Part shown: one piece after another, positions 1,572 through 49,740 of the stretch | Numbering within the stretch: position 1 is the stretch's first letter | How the letters are laid out: each line of letters opens with the position of its first letter | Origin: Synergistes jonesii | GTDB lineage: Bacteria > Synergistota > Synergistia > Synergistales > Synergistaceae | Reading direction: 5' to 3' | Length of the DNA stretch: 64,000 nucleotides | NCBI RefSeq assembly: GCF_000712295.1 | Contig: NZ_JMKI01000037.1 | Coordinates: 62,001 to 126,000 of the forward strand | Notes under the pieces: model-generated | Databases searched by the model: none | What the model was told of the DNA's origin: nothing | What the model saw: the letters and a program-made list of their open reading frames with translations, nothing else | Position numbers and translations under genes: made by a program

Positions 1572-2279
1572 ATGGCGAAACCCTTTATAAAGCCCGTCGT
1601 CGCCGCGCGCGAGGCGGCGAAGTTCGTAGCGGACGGCTCTTCTCTGATGATCGGAGGTTTCAACTTCGGCGGGGCGCCTTACACGCTTATCGACGCGCTC
1701 TGCGAAAGCGGCGCGCGCGACATAGATCTGATCTGCGTCGATACGAGCTACTACGACACGAAGGTCAAGGGCCCCGTCGGCGTCGCCAGACTCGTAACCG
1801 AGGGGCGCCTGCGCTCGCTCATAGCGTCGCACATCGGGCTGAACAAAAAGACGCAGGAGCTTTACACGAGCGGCGAGCTGAAGGTCGAGCTGATACCGAT
1901 GGGGACCTTCGTCGAAAGGATCCGCGCCGGCGGCGCCGGGCTCGGCGGCGTGCTGACCCCGACCGGAGTCGACACCGTCTACGAGAAGGGGCGCGAGACG
2001 CTGGAGCTCGACGGGAAACGCTATATAATCGAGCGCGCGCTCACCGCGGAGGCGGCGTTCATACGCGCCTACAAAGCGGACGCAGCGGGAAACCTCATCT
2101 ACTACGGCACTAACAGGAACTTCAACCCGACGATGGCGACCGCGGCGAAAAAAGTCATAGCGGAGGTAGACGAGGTAGTGCCGATCGGCGAGATCGACCC
2201 GAACAGCGTAGTGACGCCGGGAATATTCATAGACGCCTTAGTGATAAAGGGGAAAAACGAATATGCTTCCAGAACTTAG
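1572..2279 (+). CDS. atoD: Acyl-CoA:acetate/acetoacetate CoA-transferase, subunit A
   Basis: This is the alpha subunit of a two-chain family I CoA-transferase, which moves CoA between short-chain acids such as acetate, butyrate or acetoacetate during amino-acid or butyrate fermentation. The sequence has the family's glycine-rich CoA-binding start (DGSSLMIGGFNFGGAP), the MGTFVERIRAGGAGLGG segment and FNPTMATAAKKVIAEVDEVV. At 235 residues it has the usual length. GGGAG precedes the ATG. The beta-subunit gene overlaps its last 17 bases, so the two are translationally coupled. The exact acid pair is not determined by sequence; butyrate-acetoacetate and acetate CoA-transferases both fit. Confidence 0.85.
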   Translation: MAKPFIKPVVAAREAAKFVADGSSLMIGGFNFGGAPYTLIDALCESGARDIDLICVDTSYYDTKVKGPVGVARLVTEGRLRSLIASHIGLNKKTQELYTSGELKVELIPMGTFVERIRAGGAGLGGVLTPTGVDTVYEKGRETLELDGKRYIIERALTAEAAFIRAYKADAAGNLIYYGTNRNFNPTMATAAKKVIAEVDEVVPIGEIDPNSVVTPGIFIDALVIKGKNEYASRT

Positions 2280-2931
2280 CGAAGATGAAGCTAAGGTACG
2301 CATCGCGAGAAAAATCGCGTCGGAGCTCAAAGACGGCGAGCTGGTGAACCTGGGGATAGGGATACCGCAGTCAGTGCCCAAGTACCTGCCGGAGGGCGTC
2401 CATTTGATACTGCAGACGGAAAACGGCGCGATAAACGCCGGGGCCACCGAGGAGAAGCGCGACCTGCGCACGATCGACGCGGGCGGCGCGCCGATAACCA
2501 TCCTGCCGGGAGGCGCGCTCGTCTCCTCCGAGCTCAGCTTCGCGATAATGCGCGGCGGGCACGTCGACGCGACAGTCTTAGGCGCCCTCGAGGTCGACGC
2601 CGAGGGCAGCCTCGCCAGCTGGATGATACCGCAAGTGCGCGTGCCTGGGATGGGCGGCGCGATGGACATAGCGACTGGCTCGAAGATGGTCTACGTCGCG
2701 ACACGCCACTTCGACAAGAGGGGCAAAAGCAAGCTGGTGCAAAAATGCACGCTGCCTTTGACCGGGCGCTGCGTCGTCGACGTCGTCGTCACGGAATACT
2801 GCGTGCTGCGCAACAGCTACGGACGCATGGTGATGACGGCGCTCGCGGAGGACGCGCCACTCCGGGAGCTGCTCGACAGGACTGAAATGAAGATATACGT
2901 CAGCTCTCAGCTGACAAAGGAAAAATTTTAG
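2263..2931 (+). CDS. atoA: Acyl-CoA:acetate/acetoacetate CoA-transferase, subunit B
   Basis: This is the catalytic beta subunit. The family I active-site glutamate is in LQTENGAINAG (about residues 49-59), the Glu that forms the enzyme-CoA thioester. Other family marks are NLGIGIPQSVPKYLPEGV near the start and MGGAMDIATGSKMVYV. It has 222 residues, standard for the subunit. Its ATG lies inside the end of the alpha-subunit gene. The 275 bases after it (2932-3206) hold no gene or terminator I can support; the next gene is convergent. Confidence 0.87.
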   Translation: MLPELSEDEAKVRIARKIASELKDGELVNLGIGIPQSVPKYLPEGVHLILQTENGAINAGATEEKRDLRTIDAGGAPITILPGGALVSSELSFAIMRGGHVDATVLGALEVDAEGSLASWMIPQVRVPGMGGAMDIATGSKMVYVATRHFDKRGKSKLVQKCTLPLTGRCVVDVVVTEYCVLRNSYGRMVMTALAEDAPLRELLDRTEMKIYVSSQLTKEKF

Positions 2932-3206
2932 CCGCCAGAGGGAATCTAACGCAGGCATCGCTAAAGCGAACGAAAACGCCGCGCGCCGCGAAGGCTTTCA
3001 GTGCAAGCACGGCTGTCTCGTCATTCATCAATTTATATACCTTTATCAGCGTTTTTCACAAGGGATCGTCTTTCATTGGCACTACAAATAACTTCCTGTC
3101 GAGTTGGTAGCCCGGTGCGTTTACCGCGCGCGCCTTCGCCGGTTATGCGTCTTAATAGATCTGCGCGCCGGCAGCTGCGCTATTTGAGGTGCAGACGCTC
3201 GCCCGG

Positions 3207-4400
3207 CTACAATAAAATAACATAGAAGAAATGCGCGCATACACCGGCCAAAAAGCCGCCGATGGTGTGGCTCAATATGGCTTTCATGGTCATCTTGCGA
3301 GAATTTATCGCCTCCATCATCGCGACGTGCGTGCTGAGATATCCGCTCCAACACATTCCCATCGCCGTAAAAACGGCAATTTCGTTCGCCCCGATCCTGC
3401 CCTCCCTGAGCAGTTGAGGAACTATACCTATAGCCGCACCAACCGCGCCGAGCGACGTCAACGGGAACGCGATGGCGGATGGATCCTGAAATCCGAGAAG
3501 CGGGTCCAGTATGATATTCAGATACCTTCCAAGAACGGGAAGCACGGCGATGCCCTCATAGGCTGCGCCGGTATAAACCCCTTCCGCGCCGGGACCGTTC
3601 GTCAGCATCATGACCACGGTACAGATCGTCGCAACTCCGGGAATCACAAGCAGAGACAGGTTGAAGCCGGTCTTAGCCCCGTCTAAAAGGGCCTCCATAA
3701 AACGCTGCAGCCCATTTCCCACGCGGATTTCACGAAAATTAAGCACGTCGAATTCTTCTTTAGACTCGTAACCCTCGGCTTTTGCACCTTCGTCTGTACC
3801 ATATTCCCTCTTGCTGAAAAACTGCATAATGCGGACGCTGACGATGCTTCCGATTACCGCGCCGAGCGTACCCGTCAACACCGCGCCCAAGTAACTCTCG
3901 CCTGTGATGGAACCCTGCGCCACCATGAAGGTACCGACGATGAGCCCCATTCCGAAAGACGTGCCGAGGTTTGTCAAAGAGACATACTGATAGCGCTTGA
4001 AATAGCGGCAAAACCCTCTGTCTGCCGCGAGAGAAAGAATTGCCGGGTTATCAGAAAGATACGTCGCCATGACGCCGATGACGGAGACGCCGGGCAAATT
4101 GTACAGCGGTTTCATCAAGGGGGACAGAATCATGTTGGCAAGCGCCAGAACGCCAAACTCTGAGAAAATAGCGCTCACCGCGCCGGCCAAAATGCATACC
4201 GCAGAGATTAAAAAACAAGTATTGATGACGAGGTCGTGCGCCGTCGCCATCATCGTACCAAACATATTCGCTACGCCCATCTTCATGCCGAACATGGCAA
4301 AGAAACTAATGATGAGTACAAACCATATAAGACCTTCCGGCCCCACGGCTTTTACAACCTTTGTCTTTTCTTCCATCTTCCTCAACTCACTTATCCTCAC
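3207..4400 (-). CDS. Gate-domain membrane transporter, CD0519/CD1768-like
   Basis: This is an integral membrane protein of about 397 residues with roughly ten hydrophobic helices, resembling the nucleoside-recognition (gate) domain permeases known from the Clostridioides difficile CD0519/CD1768 group. Helix-rich segments include LIWFVLIISFFAMFGMKMG near the start and VAMMEAINSRKMTMKAILSH near the end; repeated 'gate'-like units flank a soluble stretch at about 205-235. Substrate is unknown. The start is uncertain: GTG at 4400 gives the whole frame, while an ATG at 4376 (MEEKTKVV) is also possible; neither has a strong ribosome site. A hairpin with a T-run (4412-4462) separates it from the small membrane protein upstream, and a divergent LysR gene beyond may regulate both. 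Confidence 0.75.
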   Translation of the reverse strand: MRISELRKMEEKTKVVKAVGPEGLIWFVLIISFFAMFGMKMGVANMFGTMMATAHDLVINTCFLISAVCILAGAVSAIFSEFGVLALANMILSPLMKPLYNLPGVSVIGVMATYLSDNPAILSLAADRGFCRYFKRYQYVSLTNLGTSFGMGLIVGTFMVAQGSITGESYLGAVLTGTLGAVIGSIVSVRIMQFFSKREYGTDEGAKAEGYESKEEFDVLNFREIRVGNGLQRFMEALLDGAKTGFNLSLLVIPGVATICTVVMMLTNGPGAEGVYTGAAYEGIAVLPVLGRYLNIILDPLLGFQDPSAIAFPLTSLGAVGAAIGIVPQLLREGRIGANEIAVFTAMGMCWSGYLSTHVAMMEAINSRKMTMKAILSHTIGGFLAGVCAHFFYVILL

Positions 4401-4411
4401 AATTGCCTACG

Positions 4412-4462
4412 AAAAAGGGCTGCCGTTAAGCCCGTAATCTGCTTAGCGCAACAGCCCCTTTC
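4412..4462 (-). terminator. Terminator/attenuator between small membrane protein and permease
   Basis: Read on the minus strand, AAAGGGGCTG pairs with CAGCCCTTTTT across an imperfect inner stem (CTAAGC with GCTTA), and the right arm runs into five T residues. It lies after the 57-codon gene and just before the permease start, so it could act as an attenuator that reduces read-through into the permease. Confidence 0.55.
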
Positions 4463-4492
4463 TGAAGGGAAAGAACTGCTTTTCACGGATAG

Positions 4493-4666
4493 TCATATTT
4501 TTGCGCTGGAGAAGCCATACTGTCCTCTGCTTCCTCTGCCCTTAAACGCCTTCTTTTTTCCTCTGGCGATCCCCCAGATTCTTTCGGCGGTCACAGCGGC
4601 CGCGAAAACGAAAGAACAGATCGATACAACAAGCATCATCGCTACCAGAAACATTTCTCCGCGCAT
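4493..4666 (-). CDS. Small single-pass membrane protein
   Basis: This is a 57-residue protein starting MRGEMFLVAMMLVVSICSFV, with one long hydrophobic helix (about residues 4-25) and a basic, glycine-rich cytosolic tail (ARGKKKAFKGRGSRG). I choose the ATG at 4666 because AAGGGGGC lies about 7 nt upstream; the frame is open to 4702 without such a site. It is first in a presumed unit with the gate-domain permease, so a small accessory subunit or regulator of that transporter is plausible. I do not recognise the family. Confidence 0.55.
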   Translation of the reverse strand: MRGEMFLVAMMLVVSICSFVFAAAVTAERIWGIARGKKKAFKGRGSRGQYGFSSAKI

Positions 4667-5176
4667 CGTACTCGCCCCCTTATTTTTATTGTTGTTTTTC
4701 ACCGATCTTTTATGCCGTTAATGTTATCAAGCTTGACAAAAGAAGTAAAACGACAAAACAAAATGTCGAACATAACGTTTTATCATGTATCGCGCGCTGC
4801 ACGGCGCCCCCGAGGGCTCCTCGGCAGAAAAAACGGGCACGGCCCGTAAAGGACCGCGCCCGTCTGCGCAGGTAAAACAGCATGACCGCACTATCAAAAC
4901 AACCGACAGGACGCCGCCGATAACGCCGCAGCGCACGTCAGCCCCCCCAACTCCCAAATGCTGACCTTCGCGCACGCAAGAAGCTAAAGGCAATATGCCT
5001 CGATCTGTTCCCGCAGTTCGGCCGGTGTCGCTGCGCCGGCGTCTGCCGCAGCAATTATCGGCGGCAAAAAGGTGTTTTTTACAAAAATTCACCATATCAC
5101 AGCGCACTCAAATTTCATAATAGCTGTTATATTATACCAAACAGCACAATGAATATCTCGCAGGGGGCGATATTTT
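4667..5176. other. Intergenic region with possible gene remnant, between small membrane protein and LysR gene
   Basis: About 510 bases without a convincing intact gene. It must hold the divergent promoters for the permease unit and the LysR gene. Near 4840-4862 there is a short inverted repeat (CGGGCACGGCCCG type). On the minus strand, 4984-5087 is an open frame ending in TPAELREQIEAYCL, which looks like a protein tail but has no start codon, so it may be the remnant of a lost gene. Confidence 0.35.
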
Positions 5177-6067
5177 TTGGATATAAGAAAATATGAGGTG
5201 ATTATAAAAGCCGCCGAATGTAGAAATCTGACTAAGGCGGGAGAATTTTTCGGCTATACACAGTCGGGGGTCAGCCATATGATCAAGGTGGTCGAGGAAG
5301 AGCTCGGCTTCCGCGTGCTCAACAGAAGCAGAAGCGGCGTCTCTCTGACTCCCGAAGGGGAAAGGATAATCCCGGTGCTGCGCGAAATCGCCCGCTGGAA
5401 CGAAAACCTTGTGCAGATAGCAGCGGATATAAACGGCCTGGTATGCGGAAACCTGCGCGTCGGCGTATTCAGCAGCGTCGCAATCCATTGGCTGCCGCGT
5501 ATTCTAAGAGATTTCCAGGCGGATTACCCGCATATCAGCATAGATATCATCGAAGGAGGAAGCGAGGATATGCGCGACAAGCTGTCGAACGGCGAGATAG
5601 ACCTTGCACTGATGAGCATTCAGCCGAATTTCGGTTTTGAGGCCCAAGTGCTGAAGGTAGACTCATTTTTTGCCGTCCTGCCGCACGAACATCCTCTTGC
5701 AAAGAAAGCGCACTTCCCGCTCGAAGCGTTCAACGGTTCGGAGTTCATACTCGTCAAGCGCGGCTACGACGACGACATTTACAAGATACTCGCCGAATAC
5801 TCGCTCACGCCGAATATAAAATTCACGTCGAACAACGAGCATGCCGTCGTGTCAATGATAGAGAGCGGTCTCGGCGTCAGCATCCTGCCGGAGCTCGTCG
5901 TGCGCAGCTACCATGAAAACGTCTCCGTGCTTCCTCTTTCGCCCGAGGTCAGCAGGAAACTCGGCATCTGCGTGACGTCCTTCGACGAGCTTTCGCCGGC
6001 TTGCAGGCGCTTCTGCCGGTACGTAAGAAAGACGGTCGCGCCGGACGGTGCGATGACAGAGGATTAA
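5177..6067 (+). CDS. LysR-family transcriptional regulator
   Basis: This is a LysR-type regulator of 296 residues. The N-terminal winged helix-turn-helix is plain (AAECRNLTKAGEFFGYTQSG, then RVLNRSRSGVSLTPEG). The effector domain begins near residue 90 with GNLRVGVFSSVAIHWLPRIL and ends with the usual SGLGVSILPELVV. I use the TTG at 5177 because AGGGGGC lies 9 nt upstream and translation gives MDIRKYEVI, the normal start of the family. It is divergent from the small membrane protein and permease and is likely to control them; the inducer is unknown. Confidence 0.85.
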   Translation: MDIRKYEVIIKAAECRNLTKAGEFFGYTQSGVSHMIKVVEEELGFRVLNRSRSGVSLTPEGERIIPVLREIARWNENLVQIAADINGLVCGNLRVGVFSSVAIHWLPRILRDFQADYPHISIDIIEGGSEDMRDKLSNGEIDLALMSIQPNFGFEAQVLKVDSFFAVLPHEHPLAKKAHFPLEAFNGSEFILVKRGYDDDIYKILAEYSLTPNIKFTSNNEHAVVSMIESGLGVSILPELVVRSYHENVSVLPLSPEVSRKLGICVTSFDELSPACRRFCRYVRKTVAPDGAMTED

Positions 6068-6097
6068 CCGCGGAAACCCGCCGGCGATCCGCGCAAC

Positions 6098-6148
6098 GCG
6101 AACAAAAGCCCGCTGGCGGCCGAAGGCCGCCAGCGGGCTTTTGTTCGC
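6098..6148. terminator. Strong bidirectional terminator, 24-bp perfect stem
   Basis: Two perfect 24-base arms (6098-6121 and 6125-6148) flank a GAA loop. The arms contain AAAAG and CTTTT, so a U-rich tail is made in both directions. It separates the convergent LysR gene and the exported coiled-coil protein. Confidence 0.9.
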
Positions 6149-6158
6149 GCTTTTCCGC

Positions 6159-6929
6159 TTACTGCTTAGCGAGTTCGTCGAGCCTCTTTTGAATCGTATC
6201 CAACTCTTCGTTGATCGACGAAAGCTTCGACTCCTCTTCGGCTTTGTCTTTGCGCAGCTTCTCAAGGCGTTTGATGAGGCGGTCGGTCTCAAGCTTGTTC
6301 GCCGCGGCGCCCTGGTAGAGCTTCTGCGGGTCGTCGTCCGCCACGTCCCAGATGAAGCTTATCGACTTGCCCTCCAGCAGCGGGCTGATAGCGGGCGAGA
6401 ATTCAAGGTTCACGCTGTTCACGCCCTTAAGCAGATCCCTGCCGCTCTTCTCGTCGAAGCGCGGGAAGAAGACGAGTCCCTCTTTATTCCCCTGGAACTT
6501 GAAGTTGAAGCGTTTGTCGTAGTCGGCCGGCTTGTAGGTCTTGCCCTTTATCCTCAGCTTGACCATTATGTCGAAGGGGCCCAGGTACATCGTCGGGCCG
6601 TTGTTGACGAACTCTATATGTATGGGGATGAGCTCGTCGAGCTTCAAGCTCGACAGGAATTTGTACTTATAGTCGTCGGCCTCGCTCTGCGTCCAGAGGT
6701 TGTCCTTCGACTCCTTCTGCACGAGGGCCTCTATGAACTCCGCCGAGTAGTAGGTGGCCTTGACTTCGAGGTTGGCTCCGTCTTCGTCGACGATCTTGCG
6801 CGACTTCGTCCAGCGCAGAAGCGCCTGGTCGAAGGCGTCGGCCGACGCCGGAAGCGCCGGCGCCAGCGATATCAAAGCCGCCACCGCGGCCAGCAGGAGC
6901 GCCGCCAATTTAAATCTGTAATTTCTCAA
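6159..6929 (-). CDS. Exported protein with C-terminal coiled coil
   Basis: I do not recognise a named family. The 256-residue protein has a clear Sec signal peptide (KLAALLLAAVAALISLAPAL, cleavage likely after ALPASA), a mixed globular middle (about 32-205) with beta-type stretches such as PIHIEFVNNGPTMYLGPFDI, and a charged coiled coil (about 215-256, LEKLRKDKAEEESKLSSINE). It should be periplasmic. It lies directly downstream of, and in the same direction as, the SLH porin but behind that gene's terminator, suggesting an envelope role with separate expression. Confidence 0.65.
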   Translation of the reverse strand: MRNYRFKLAALLLAAVAALISLAPALPASADAFDQALLRWTKSRKIVDEDGANLEVKATYYSAEFIEALVQKESKDNLWTQSEADDYKYKFLSSLKLDELIPIHIEFVNNGPTMYLGPFDIMVKLRIKGKTYKPADYDKRFNFKFQGNKEGLVFFPRFDEKSGRDLLKGVNSVNLEFSPAISPLLEGKSISFIWDVADDDPQKLYQGAAANKLETDRLIKRLEKLRKDKAEEESKLSSINEELDTIQKRLDELAKQ

Positions 6930-45405: not shown

Positions 45406-48400
45406 ATGTGTAAACGATTTTATCTTCTCACGCTCGTGCTGGCGCTGTCCGCCGCGCTCCCGGCCTGCGCCGCGCAGAAGGCGGCCTGGATCGAAAGCGC
45501 GGACACGGCCTGGTACGAGAACGACAGGGAGGCGTCGGAATACGCGATAGACACCCCCGAGGAGCTCGCCGGGCTCTCTGTGCTGGTCGGCAGCGGCGAC
45601 GCGGAGGGAGCGAAGGTCAACTTCAACGGAAAGACGATACGCCTGGCTAAGGATATAGACCTCTCCGGCCGGACGTGGACTTCTATAGGATGCGGGTACG
45701 GCAGCTTCCAGGGGGTATTCGACGGGCGCGGGCACACGATAGAAGGGCTCGGCACCGTAACGCCCTTCGACGAACAGGGCTGGTCAAACGGTTACGGCCT
45801 CTTCGGATGGGTAAGCGGCCGGCAGGCCGTCGTAAAAAACATCAACCTTAGGGGCGTCGTCGCCGCCTCCGGCGATAAATGCTCTTCGCTTGGGGCTGTT
45901 GTCGGCGGCATCGATCAAAACGCAGCGGTCGAAAACTGCGTATTTTCCGGCGCGCTCAAAGGCTTCAGCGGCGCCGCGATCGGCGGCATCGTCGGTTATA
46001 ATTACGGTGGCAGCGTCCGCAGCTGCTCCGTGAGCGCCGACATCGCAACCGGCGCGACAAACGCGGAGGAAGCAAAAAAAACAAGAATCGGCGGCATCGC
46101 CGGCAGCTACGAATGTTACGAGGTCGGCCCATCCATTGAAAATTCCGTCTTTACAGGTTCCATCAGATACACGGACGGCTCCGCTTCGATGAGGGTCGGC
46201 GGCATTGCAGGCGAGAATTCTTCGGAACGCTGTATCATCCAGAACTGCGCCGTCTCCGCCGACATCGACGTATCGGGCGGCACATCGCCCTTCGGCTACG
46301 ACCAGTGGATAAACTGCGCCGGCGGCGCAGCCGGCTACAACGGCGGAACTATCAATAACGTAGCGGTGACAGGCTCGGTGAAGCTGCACGCCGACGACGC
46401 GCAGAACGACGTGGCGGCGGGGGGGCTTGCCGGAGTAAACGTCTCAGGACAGAACATCCGCATAGAAAACAGCTCGCTCAGCTGCACAGTCTCGGTTTCA
46501 AGCCCGAACGCAGAAAAAACCTGGGCGGGCGCGATAGCGGGTTACAACTACGTATCCTCGTGGTCTCCCCATCAGAACCGCGGCATGATAATCAACAACC
46601 GCTGGGTCAAAAAGAAGGGAGTGCCGAAAGCAGCGGCCGGAAATTATAATGAAATAAGCGCCGACATAAGAGAAGTCTGCATCATAAGCAACGACGCGGT
46701 GGCGTCGGATTCAAAGCTGCCCGCAGCCGCCGTGCTCACCGTGCCGCTCGTCAGCCTCACGGAAAACAAATCCCTCACGCTTGCGGCAACGGTGTACCCC
46801 GTGACGGCCTGCAACAAAGACGAAGTCACGTTCCTGTGGAGCGTGAAGGACGGCTCGATACTTTCCCTTTCGGCGGACGGCGCTTCCGCGTGTATAAAGG
46901 GGCTCAAAGCCGGCTTCACGCAGGCGAGCCTCACCTGCGGCGGCCTGCTCGGCGGCGAAAACAGCTATACTCCCGCCACCGGAGCTGCGGTATGCCGCGT
47001 CAACCTCGACGGTCTCAAACTCTCGCCCGAGGCGATATCGCTCGACGCATCCGGCAAAAGCGCGGACATCACGGCGGAGATAGCGCCGGATGCCGACATC
47101 CCGTCGTATCCGGTGCTCAAATGGACGTACGAAGTGGTCTCCGGCGACGGCGCAGCGGCAGACGACATCATCCTCTCCTTTGGCGGGACAAGCCTCGCGG
47201 CCAGCGTAACGCTGAAGAACCACGTCCCCGGCGCCGTCTACCGCATCACTGCAGAGGCGGTAGACGATTCCTCGCTCAAAGACTCGATCCTGCTTACCGC
47301 CGCGCCCTCTGCGCCCTCCGGCGGCTCCTCCGGCGGCTGCAACTCGGGCTTTGCGGCTGTAGCGCTGCTTCTGCCCTGCGCGCTGGCGCTGGCGGGAAAG
47401 ACAAAAAGGAAGAGGGCGGCTATGAAAAAGCCCCGTGCGGGCAAAGCCCTCCTCGTGCTGACAGCGCTGCTTCTTACGCTTTCGGCGGCTAAGGCTCCGG
47501 CGGCCGATTTCTGGAAGGCGGATACGGGCTGGTACGACGGCCCCGCCGCCGCCAAAGGCACCGCCGACGACCCCTACAGGATATCGGACGCGGAGGCGCT
47601 CGCGGGGCTCGCGGCGCTCGTCAACGCCGGCTCCGACGACTTCAAAGAAAAATACATAACGCTGACGGTGGACGTCGATCTTGCGAAAAAAGAGTGGATC
47701 CCCATAGGCTGGATGGTCGCCTACGGCAACCTCCGCGGCTTCGCCGGACACTTTGACGGCGGCGGGCACCGGATAACGGGTATGCTCATCTCCACCGGCG
47801 AGTATATGCCGAAGGGGGCCGACGGCAATATGGACCCCAACGGCCAGCGCAGCCACTGTACCGGGCTCTTCGGACACCTGCTGCCGACGGGCACGATACA
47901 GAACCTCTACTTAGAGGGCTCCGTCACCAATAAAGTCGACTCCGGCGCCGCCGGCCTCGTCAGCTGGACCGACGGGCAGGTGAGCAACTGCGTCGTCAGC
48001 TGCGACGTCGACGCCTCCGGCGAGGGGCGCTCGTATGCCGGGCAGGTAGCCTCTCTGGTAGGCGGCGGGCTCGTGCGCAACTGCGTCACATACGGGACGG
48101 TAAAATCGACCGTAGGAGCAGCCTACTCGGGCGGCATAGCGGGCTTCGGCTACTGGTACAGGGGCAATGTGGAAAACTGCGTCTCCATGTGCTCCTCTAT
48201 CACCAGCACGATGGACGCCGGCGGGATCTGGGGCGGCTTCAACTCCACGACGAAATACTGCGTCTCCGCCGCCGACTATGTAGAGGGCGACGTCAAATAC
48301 ACCGGCGGCATAGTCGGCGCCTTCGGATTCGGCTACACGGAATGCTACTGGCTCAAGGTAAAAGAGGGGCAGCCGGATGGCGGCAATCCGTCGATGGGCT

Positions 48401-49740
48401 ACGCCGAGCAGGGTAAAATAACAGACCCGGCGCTCCTGCCGGCGGCCGCCGTCGTCCTGGACACGGAAGGCTTCAAGACGTTAAAGACGGGCGAGAGCCG
48501 CGAGATAGAGGCGAAGGTCTATCCGCCGACCGCGGACGCCTCGGCGCTGCGCTACAGATGGACGCTCCCGGAGGGCCTTACGCTGCTCTCAGGCGCCGGC
48601 ACCTCAAAGATAACGGTCCGCGCCGATAAAGAGGGCTTCTATCCGGTAAGCGCGGCGGTCACCGGCCTGCTGGGCGTCGGCGCGGAGAGCGCGGACATCG
48701 CCCTTACGCCGGGAGGCATACTGAAAGTCGCCTCCAAAAAGGTCGCCGTTGAAAAAATAATGATCGGCGGCAGCGCCGAGGCCATGAGAGAGGGCGAAAG
48801 CCGCACCTTTACTGCCGCCTGCACCCCCTCGGACGCCGAGGGCGATATAAAGTGGACGATAGCCGCGGCGGGCGGCGGCGCTCAGGACTCAGACGTACAC
48901 CTCACGGAAAACGCCGGCGGCAGCGCGACGGTGACGCTGCGCCGCGCCGGCGGAACGTCAGGCGAATACAAGCTCACCGCGACCGACGAGGAGAGCGGCG
49001 TCTCGGCGTCGGTCACCCTCACCACTTCCGTAATAGAGGGAGAGGAGATATGGAGCATCCTGCCGATCGGCGACGTGATAACGGCCGACGTCGAGGCGGT
49101 AAAGGCGAACGGCATCAACTCATCGCAGCTCGACGACGTCGCAAAGAGCCTCGGCGCTTCGATGGGCTCCTTCAAGGTCAACGAGAGGGGCGTCGTCTAC
49201 CTGGAAGACGCCGTCTTGCAGCGGGCGATCGTGGACGCCGTCTCCGACGACAGCGTCGCGCTCGACCGCGCGGTATCGCTGCCGCTCTTCAGGGCGCAAC
49301 TTTCGACTGCCGGCGCTACGGCGGCTACGGCCTTCATAATAAGCGGCGACAGGCTGCTCGCCGATACGCCGCAGGAGGTCAGGCTCGTGAAGACGCGCCC
49401 CGACGGAACGGGAACGTTCTTCGCCTATGCAGCCGCCTCGGCAGACTACAAAGACGGACACTTCACGCTCCAGCGTATGGACGACGGCGTGATGGCGGCT
49501 GAAGAGGCCATAGAGGCGGACAAGAGCTACAAGCTCGTCGTCTACGTAAAGGACGGAGGGGATTACGACGTCGATTCCACGGAACGCTCCGTAGTAGACC
49601 CGCTGGCGGTCGTAAAGACGTCTAAGAAGTCCTCCGGCGGCTCGGGAGGCTGCAGCGCGGGATTCGGCGCGCTCGCGTTGCTGCCCGTCGCTTTCGCCGC
49701 CCTGCTGAGAAGGCGCGGCCGCAACGGCCGCCGTCAATAG
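45406..49740 (+). CDS. Tandem Synerg-CTERM surface protein (two proteins in one frame)
   Basis: One 1444-codon frame under the cobalamin riboswitch. Part 1 (residues 1-672) has a signal peptide (RFYLLTLVLALSAALPACAA), a GLUG-type beta-solenoid region (GGIVGYNYGGSV, GGIAGENSSERC), Ig-like domains, and a Synerg-CTERM-like tail: SGGSSGGC with Cys645, a hydrophobic helix and KTKRKR. Part 2 (673-1444) begins at once with an in-frame ATG (47422) and a second signal peptide (GKALLVLTALLLTLSAAKAP), repeats the same architecture, and ends in a second tail (SSGGSGGC with Cys1416, then LLRRRGRNGRR). GAGGG lies before the internal ATG, so part 2 may also be made alone. AAGGAGG precedes the first ATG. Ligand or partner unknown; the riboswitch hints at a link to corrinoid uptake. 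Confidence 0.85.
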   Translation: MCKRFYLLTLVLALSAALPACAAQKAAWIESADTAWYENDREASEYAIDTPEELAGLSVLVGSGDAEGAKVNFNGKTIRLAKDIDLSGRTWTSIGCGYGSFQGVFDGRGHTIEGLGTVTPFDEQGWSNGYGLFGWVSGRQAVVKNINLRGVVAASGDKCSSLGAVVGGIDQNAAVENCVFSGALKGFSGAAIGGIVGYNYGGSVRSCSVSADIATGATNAEEAKKTRIGGIAGSYECYEVGPSIENSVFTGSIRYTDGSASMRVGGIAGENSSERCIIQNCAVSADIDVSGGTSPFGYDQWINCAGGAAGYNGGTINNVAVTGSVKLHADDAQNDVAAGGLAGVNVSGQNIRIENSSLSCTVSVSSPNAEKTWAGAIAGYNYVSSWSPHQNRGMIINNRWVKKKGVPKAAAGNYNEISADIREVCIISNDAVASDSKLPAAAVLTVPLVSLTENKSLTLAATVYPVTACNKDEVTFLWSVKDGSILSLSADGASACIKGLKAGFTQASLTCGGLLGGENSYTPATGAAVCRVNLDGLKLSPEAISLDASGKSADITAEIAPDADIPSYPVLKWTYEVVSGDGAAADDIILSFGGTSLAASVTLKNHVPGAVYRITAEAVDDSSLKDSILLTAAPSAPSGGSSGGCNSGFAAVALLLPCALALAGKTKRKRAAMKKPRAGKALLVLTALLLTLSAAKAPAADFWKADTGWYDGPAAAKGTADDPYRISDAEALAGLAALVNAGSDDFKEKYITLTVDVDLAKKEWIPIGWMVAYGNLRGFAGHFDGGGHRITGMLISTGEYMPKGADGNMDPNGQRSHCTGLFGHLLPTGTIQNLYLEGSVTNKVDSGAAGLVSWTDGQVSNCVVSCDVDASGEGRSYAGQVASLVGGGLVRNCVTYGTVKSTVGAAYSGGIAGFGYWYRGNVENCVSMCSSITSTMDAGGIWGGFNSTTKYCVSAADYVEGDVKYTGGIVGAFGFGYTECYWLKVKEGQPDGGNPSMGYAEQGKITDPALLPAAAVVLDTEGFKTLKTGESREIEAKVYPPTADASALRYRWTLPEGLTLLSGAGTSKITVRADKEGFYPVSAAVTGLLGVGAESADIALTPGGILKVASKKVAVEKIMIGGSAEAMREGESRTFTAACTPSDAEGDIKWTIAAAGGGAQDSDVHLTENAGGSATVTLRRAGGTSGEYKLTATDEESGVSASVTLTTSVIEGEEIWSILPIGDVITADVEAVKANGINSSQLDDVAKSLGASMGSFKVNERGVVYLEDAVLQRAIVDAVSDDSVALDRAVSLPLFRAQLSTAGATAATAFIISGDRLLADTPQEVRLVKTRPDGTGTFFAYAAASADYKDGHFTLQRMDDGVMAAEEAIEADKSYKLVVYVKDGGDYDVDSTERSVVDPLAVVKTSKKSSGGSGGCSAGFGALALLPVAFAALLRRRGRNGRRQ

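Follow-up and report, generated by a model that had tools for sequence, protein, structure and literature searches.

The fused reading frame and its two halves

The stretch of DNA analysed here (the window) comprises 64,000 nucleotides of a Synergistes jonesii genome that is represented by 2.74 Mb in 60 contigs. It contains a single open reading frame that accommodates two complete exported proteins, referred to below as A and B, and the features of this frame are collected in Table 1. The original prediction that two complete Synerg-CTERM-type proteins are joined in one frame agrees with what we find, namely the open frame itself, the GGC motifs at Cys645 and Cys1416, Met673, and the membrane segments. 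The hydropathy profile of the 1444 residues has only four membrane-like segments (4-24, 644-666, 678-699 and 1415-1435), which are, in that order, signal peptide 1, the inner tail, signal peptide 2 and the end tail. One open frame for two complete proteins is also what a processed polyprotein would have. The first signal peptide is preceded by a strong Shine-Dalgarno site, AAGGAGG, with an anti-SD energy of -11.4 kcal/mol. The pair is solitary and is located between a YchF gene and genes for diacylglycerol kinase and an S55 peptidase.

Table 1. Features of the fused reading frame (positions in the window)
Feature	Position	Strand	Basis
Fused open reading frame, 1444 aa, ATG start, TAG stop	45406..49740	+	
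Signal peptide 1 (MCKRFYLLTLVLALSAALPACAA), residues 1-23	45406..45474	+	hydropathy; cleavage site by inspection
Protein A, residues 1-672: GLUG-motif beta-solenoid and Ig-like region	45406..47421	+	Pfam Glug 53.4 bits; beta-strand pattern in model
Inner Synerg-CTERM-like tail: GGC (Cys645), helix 648-664, basic end KTKRKR	47332..47421	+	profile score, inspection, hydropathy
Loop 665-680 from inner tail to signal peptide 2; 9 Lys/Arg, 0 Asp/Glu; predicted cytoplasmic	47398..47445	+	
Shine-Dalgarno-like stretch AAAAAGGAAGAGGGCGGCT preceding inner ATG (GAGGG, spacing 5 nt)	47403..47421	+	anti-SD energy
Inner ATG (Met673), gene B start in relatives	47422..47424	+	
Signal peptide 2 (MKKPRAGKALLVLTALLLTLSAAKAPAA), residues 673-700	47422..47505	+	hydropathy/inspection; aligns with ortholog's gene B start
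Protein B, 772 aa: A-like region with PKD-like domain, and extra C-terminal region	47422..49740	+	
Terminal Synerg-CTERM tail (Cys1416)	49645..49737	+	TIGR04564 21.6 bits (genome search), 19.0 bits (hmmscan); cut-off 22.5

Both tails consist of a Gly-rich Cys motif, a hydrophobic helix and a basic end, and only the second is located at the C-terminus of the frame. Neither reaches the TIGR04564 cut-off of 22.5 bits (15.1 bits for the inner and 19.0 bits for the terminal tail with hmmscan), and the terminal tail of an ortholog 68% identical to the fused frame scores 42.6 bits, above the cut-off. N-terminal signal peptides are recognized by hydropathy and inspection only, at residues 1-23 and 673-700; the hydrophobic core of the second is normal, and its end is of the Ala-x-Ala type.

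Protein A carries GLUG motifs and protein B a PKD-like domain (Pfam), and the two are homologous over most of their length (BLASTP 2e-10; profile-profile E = 2.6e-45 across 497 columns). The structure prediction for A, which is of low confidence and usable only for approximately residues 30-290, has beta-solenoid-like strands, and the model of B is poor (mean pLDDT 36). The best PDB match to the N-terminal part of A is a Gram-positive IgA1 protease at a borderline E = 1e-3, and a region of Gram-positive IgA1 proteases is the nearest solved relative by sequence and fold, again at borderline significance. These are ordinary surface-protein modules, and enzyme activity is not implied. Both halves are under purifying selection, and neither looks decayed because dN/dS relative to the orthologous pair in another genome (G014) is near 0.25 in both (~0.25 and ~0.24, NG86).

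Relatives and ancestry of the pair

Relatives were searched at the family level in 53 genomes. The closest relative of the whole frame (G014:C1:468953-473263) is 68% identical over residues 2-1440 and is interrupted by a single TAG, which makes it two genes; this ortholog is distant, with dS ~1. A second, more distant A-B pair in the window's own genome, on contig C53, is likewise split by TAG, as is one pair in G015, and further pairs in G014, G015 and G047 consist of two genes that overlap out of frame. Every other A-B pair has a stop between the genes. Relatives therefore include separate adjacent genes in the same order and frame, as expected for simple fusion by stop loss.

In a tree of seven pairs all A sequences form one clade and all B sequences the other (100/100), and the branching order is congruent between the two. 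Because the clades are separate and their branching orders match, A and B are ancient paralogues and the pair is an old linked unit, in which the missing stop is the only new difference. Chance is excluded for the two genes because the pair recurs in relatives, and the fusion in the window genome is derived because the orthologs are separate genes, a comparison that the original prediction had proposed. The original prediction also described the frame as a tandem duplication with the stop removed; loss of the stop is indeed new, but the duplication is old, and a recent tandem duplication is ruled out by the age of the two clades.

Other A-B pairs (loci L039, L040, L041 and L042) have as neighbours a gene for a TonB-dependent receptor, which Pfam confirms in L040, and a Synerg-CTERM protein that belongs to no Pfam family (ADLLFTRQDNSYANTALG...).

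The junction and the inner start

The sequence across the join of A and B is KTKRKRAAMKKPR. At the nucleotide level the junction reads GGA AAG ACA AAA AGG AAG AGG GCG GCT ATG in the window, GGA TAG AGG GGA AGG GAT AAA GCC ATG in G014, AAA TAG GAG GAA AGC AAG ATG on contig C53 and GGA TAG GAG GTG CGA AAG ATG in G015. In the last two the TAG stop lies inside the Shine-Dalgarno site of gene B (TAGGAGG). A stop codon embedded in the Shine-Dalgarno site of the next gene is a documented arrangement (PMC2784483), which these two unfused pairs share and from which the window differs in that the stop was lost and the ribosome site kept. The simplest route would be a T-to-A change that converts TAG AGG to AAG AGG, although the divergence is too great to fix the exact event. 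Conserved programmed read-through of TAG in the relatives is unsupported, since the TAGGAGG overlap explains the in-frame TAG and three pairs overlap out of frame with TAA.

A different account of the missing stop is a sequencing or assembly error, in which case A and B would in truth be two ordinary genes separated by a stop. Within the 9-codon linker there are four single substitutions that would each create a stop, and with one base fewer upstream A would end at the +1-frame TGA at 47423-47425; this TGA overlaps the inner ATG as ATGA, an overlap that is common between adjacent genes. A stop is present in all other A-B pairs, and an ortholog at dS ~1 leaves room for a single error. However, the statistics of the window's genome fit the draft of S. 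jonesii 78-1 (2,747,397 bp, 61 contigs), for which Sanger reads at 8.7x and Illumina reads at 54x were combined (PMC4153494), a coverage that makes an error of this kind improbable. In addition, the linker has no homopolymer longer than a run of five A, the basic tail KTKRKR reaches the linker in the expected frame, and another genus has a second stopless junction. Weighing these points, we regard an error as improbable.

The inner ATG has an anti-SD energy of -6.3 kcal/mol, the same as the median over 37 gene starts of the window; 13% of all ATGs reach this value. Gene B thus keeps an ATG and a usable Shine-Dalgarno site, so it may also start independently. One could go further and suppose that the fusion is real but that B arises mainly from internal initiation at Met673, with polyprotein processing playing a minor part; the ribosome site is of typical strength and signal peptide 2 is conserved with the ortholog in position and character. 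Nevertheless, ribosomes elongating from A cross the inner site and should lower initiation there, and the three separate B genes tested have stronger sites (-8.2 to -11.5 kcal/mol), which leaves predominant internal initiation with about the same small probability that we assign to an error.

The presumed processing enzyme and the fate of the chain

The original prediction recommended a search for the processing enzyme, and a gene for the presumed enzyme is present. The genome has one CPBP-family protease, which matches the Synerg-CTERM system glutamic-type intramembrane protease MrtS (NF040589) with 239.7 bits at a cut-off of 130, and the genome therefore contains the partner protease of the Synerg-CTERM system in single copy. 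Of the 53 genomes, 36 have MrtS above the cut-off, with one copy in each, and these include G014, G015 and G027. No rhomboid protease (PF01694) was matched in the whole genome, with all 14 of 14 control genomes positive, which rules out rhombosortase, of the GlyGly-CTERM system, as the processing enzyme. The mrtS gene (L043, G000:C53, 786-1812, + strand) lies directly behind a gene for a Fur-family regulator, a hint that the sorting of surface proteins may respond to metals.

Cutting does not require the tail to be strictly terminal, because MrtX, a related myxosortase, also cleaves a tail that has a FLAG tag behind it (PMC11980579). By analogy, a whole exported protein behind a cuttable tail may also be acceptable to the protease. 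In the literature searched, no paper describes cleavage of a CTERM tail with a whole exported protein behind it, and none mentions Synerg-CTERM. If the tail were not cut, the product would be a single 1444-residue surface protein with an internal membrane hairpin. The low score of the inner tail with TIGR04564 is compatible with such an uncut chain, but the inner Cys, helix and basic end are all retained, MrtS is present, and signal peptide 2 is normal in its core and in its Ala-x-Ala-type end; we consider this outcome very improbable, more so than either alternative discussed above.

The explanation that we favour, and hold to be reasonably probable, is that an ancestral two-gene A-B unit lost its stop and is now translated through, the chain being cut by signal peptidase and MrtS while some B starts internally, with little effect on fitness. 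In the ancestor A would have been followed by B in the same frame, the two being paralogous surface proteins that are exported and sorted by their C-termini. The stop of A would have lain either within the Shine-Dalgarno site of B or beside it, and this stop would have been lost in the present lineage. Ribosomes would read through to produce one chain, whose inner tail would pair with signal peptide 2 as a membrane hairpin around a positively charged cytoplasmic loop. Signal peptidase would cut behind signal peptide 2, and a cut by MrtS at the inner Cys tail would set A and B free just as when they are separate genes; some B would probably also be initiated at Met673. The fusion would then be nearly neutral, yielding the same two products with tighter coupling.

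Processing, internal start or both should give two proteins because the hairpin signals, MrtS and the start of B are all retained, and polyprotein processing is likely. The single frame and the presence of MrtS are consistent with the polyprotein that had been proposed, but an obligate polyprotein is unsupported, as B keeps its ATG and a Shine-Dalgarno-like site. Equal amounts of the two proteins, which had also been proposed, do not follow if read-through and an independent start of B both operate. We view the window pair as a real-looking but modest oddity, apparently a derived in-frame fusion of old paralogous sorted surface proteins.

Comparison with known systems

In Clostridioides difficile one precursor, SlpA, is cut into two surface proteins, as proposed here, and differs in that it is cut by the cysteine protease Cwp84 and has one signal peptide, with neither an inner membrane tail nor an inner signal peptide. 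In the Bradyrhizobium cytochrome b/c1 polyprotein (fbcH) an inner signal sequence cut by signal peptidase splits one product; it has no sorting tail, and the fused partners are not paralogues. The Synerg-CTERM/MrtS system (TIGR04564, NF040589) is matched by the signal peptide, Gly-rich Cys motif, helix, basic end and single MrtS of the present case, which departs from it in that one of the tails is internal to the frame, with a second complete exported protein behind it. The MYXO-CTERM/MrtX system (PMC11980579) has a tripartite Cys tail, a CPBP-family glutamic protease and tolerance of FLAG after the tail, but belongs to another phylum, uses another member of the enzyme family, and its native substrates have terminal tails.

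If the fusion is real, it amounts to a natural test of two points, namely whether a C-terminal sorting tail still functions away from the terminus and whether MrtS can cleave within a long chain. It would also illustrate an easy route to bacterial polyproteins, in which one base change fuses two genes when the stop lies within the ribosome site of the next gene in the same frame, and it would suggest that membrane signals at the join can undo a gene fusion at the protein level.

Other stopless and near-stopless junctions

A junction profile applied to the 53 family genomes and 188 genomes of the phylum Synergistota identified at least two stopless junctions, that of the window and one in G027; because the profile's own rows included both junctions and no more than 31 candidates per genome were scored across the phylum, two is a lower bound. 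The G027 case (locus L090, G027:C48, 1411-7524, + strand) was met while scanning regions picked for long frames, and is a Synerg-CTERM fusion of ~2040 residues with two peptidase-like halves, of which the second matches PF00246 Peptidase_M14 and the first is related to single genes in several genomes. Its inner tail GGCDAGFGALILLISAGAAIYARKRGG directly joins the signal peptide AIALLLALLLAIAVPGMALA with no ATG, GTG or TTG in between, and AGGAGG at the join is followed by ATT. This genome is a draft of ~170 contigs, and an error at its junction is possible. A broader proposition is that Synergistota make genuine surface polyproteins, in which an inner tail and a second signal peptide constitute a self-contained hairpin that is cut twice and has been used more than once (in the window and in the M14 peptidase-like pair of G027), forcing coupled output; we judge this unlikely, though less so than any of the three alternatives weighed above.

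The locus L073 (G047:C2) was considered as a further fusion and rejected, as it consists of two in-frame genes split by one stop. These tandem Synerg-CTERM genes (1612-4005 and 4006-6531, - strand) are in the same frame, a single stop and two codons apart, and the pair is one base change short of fusion.
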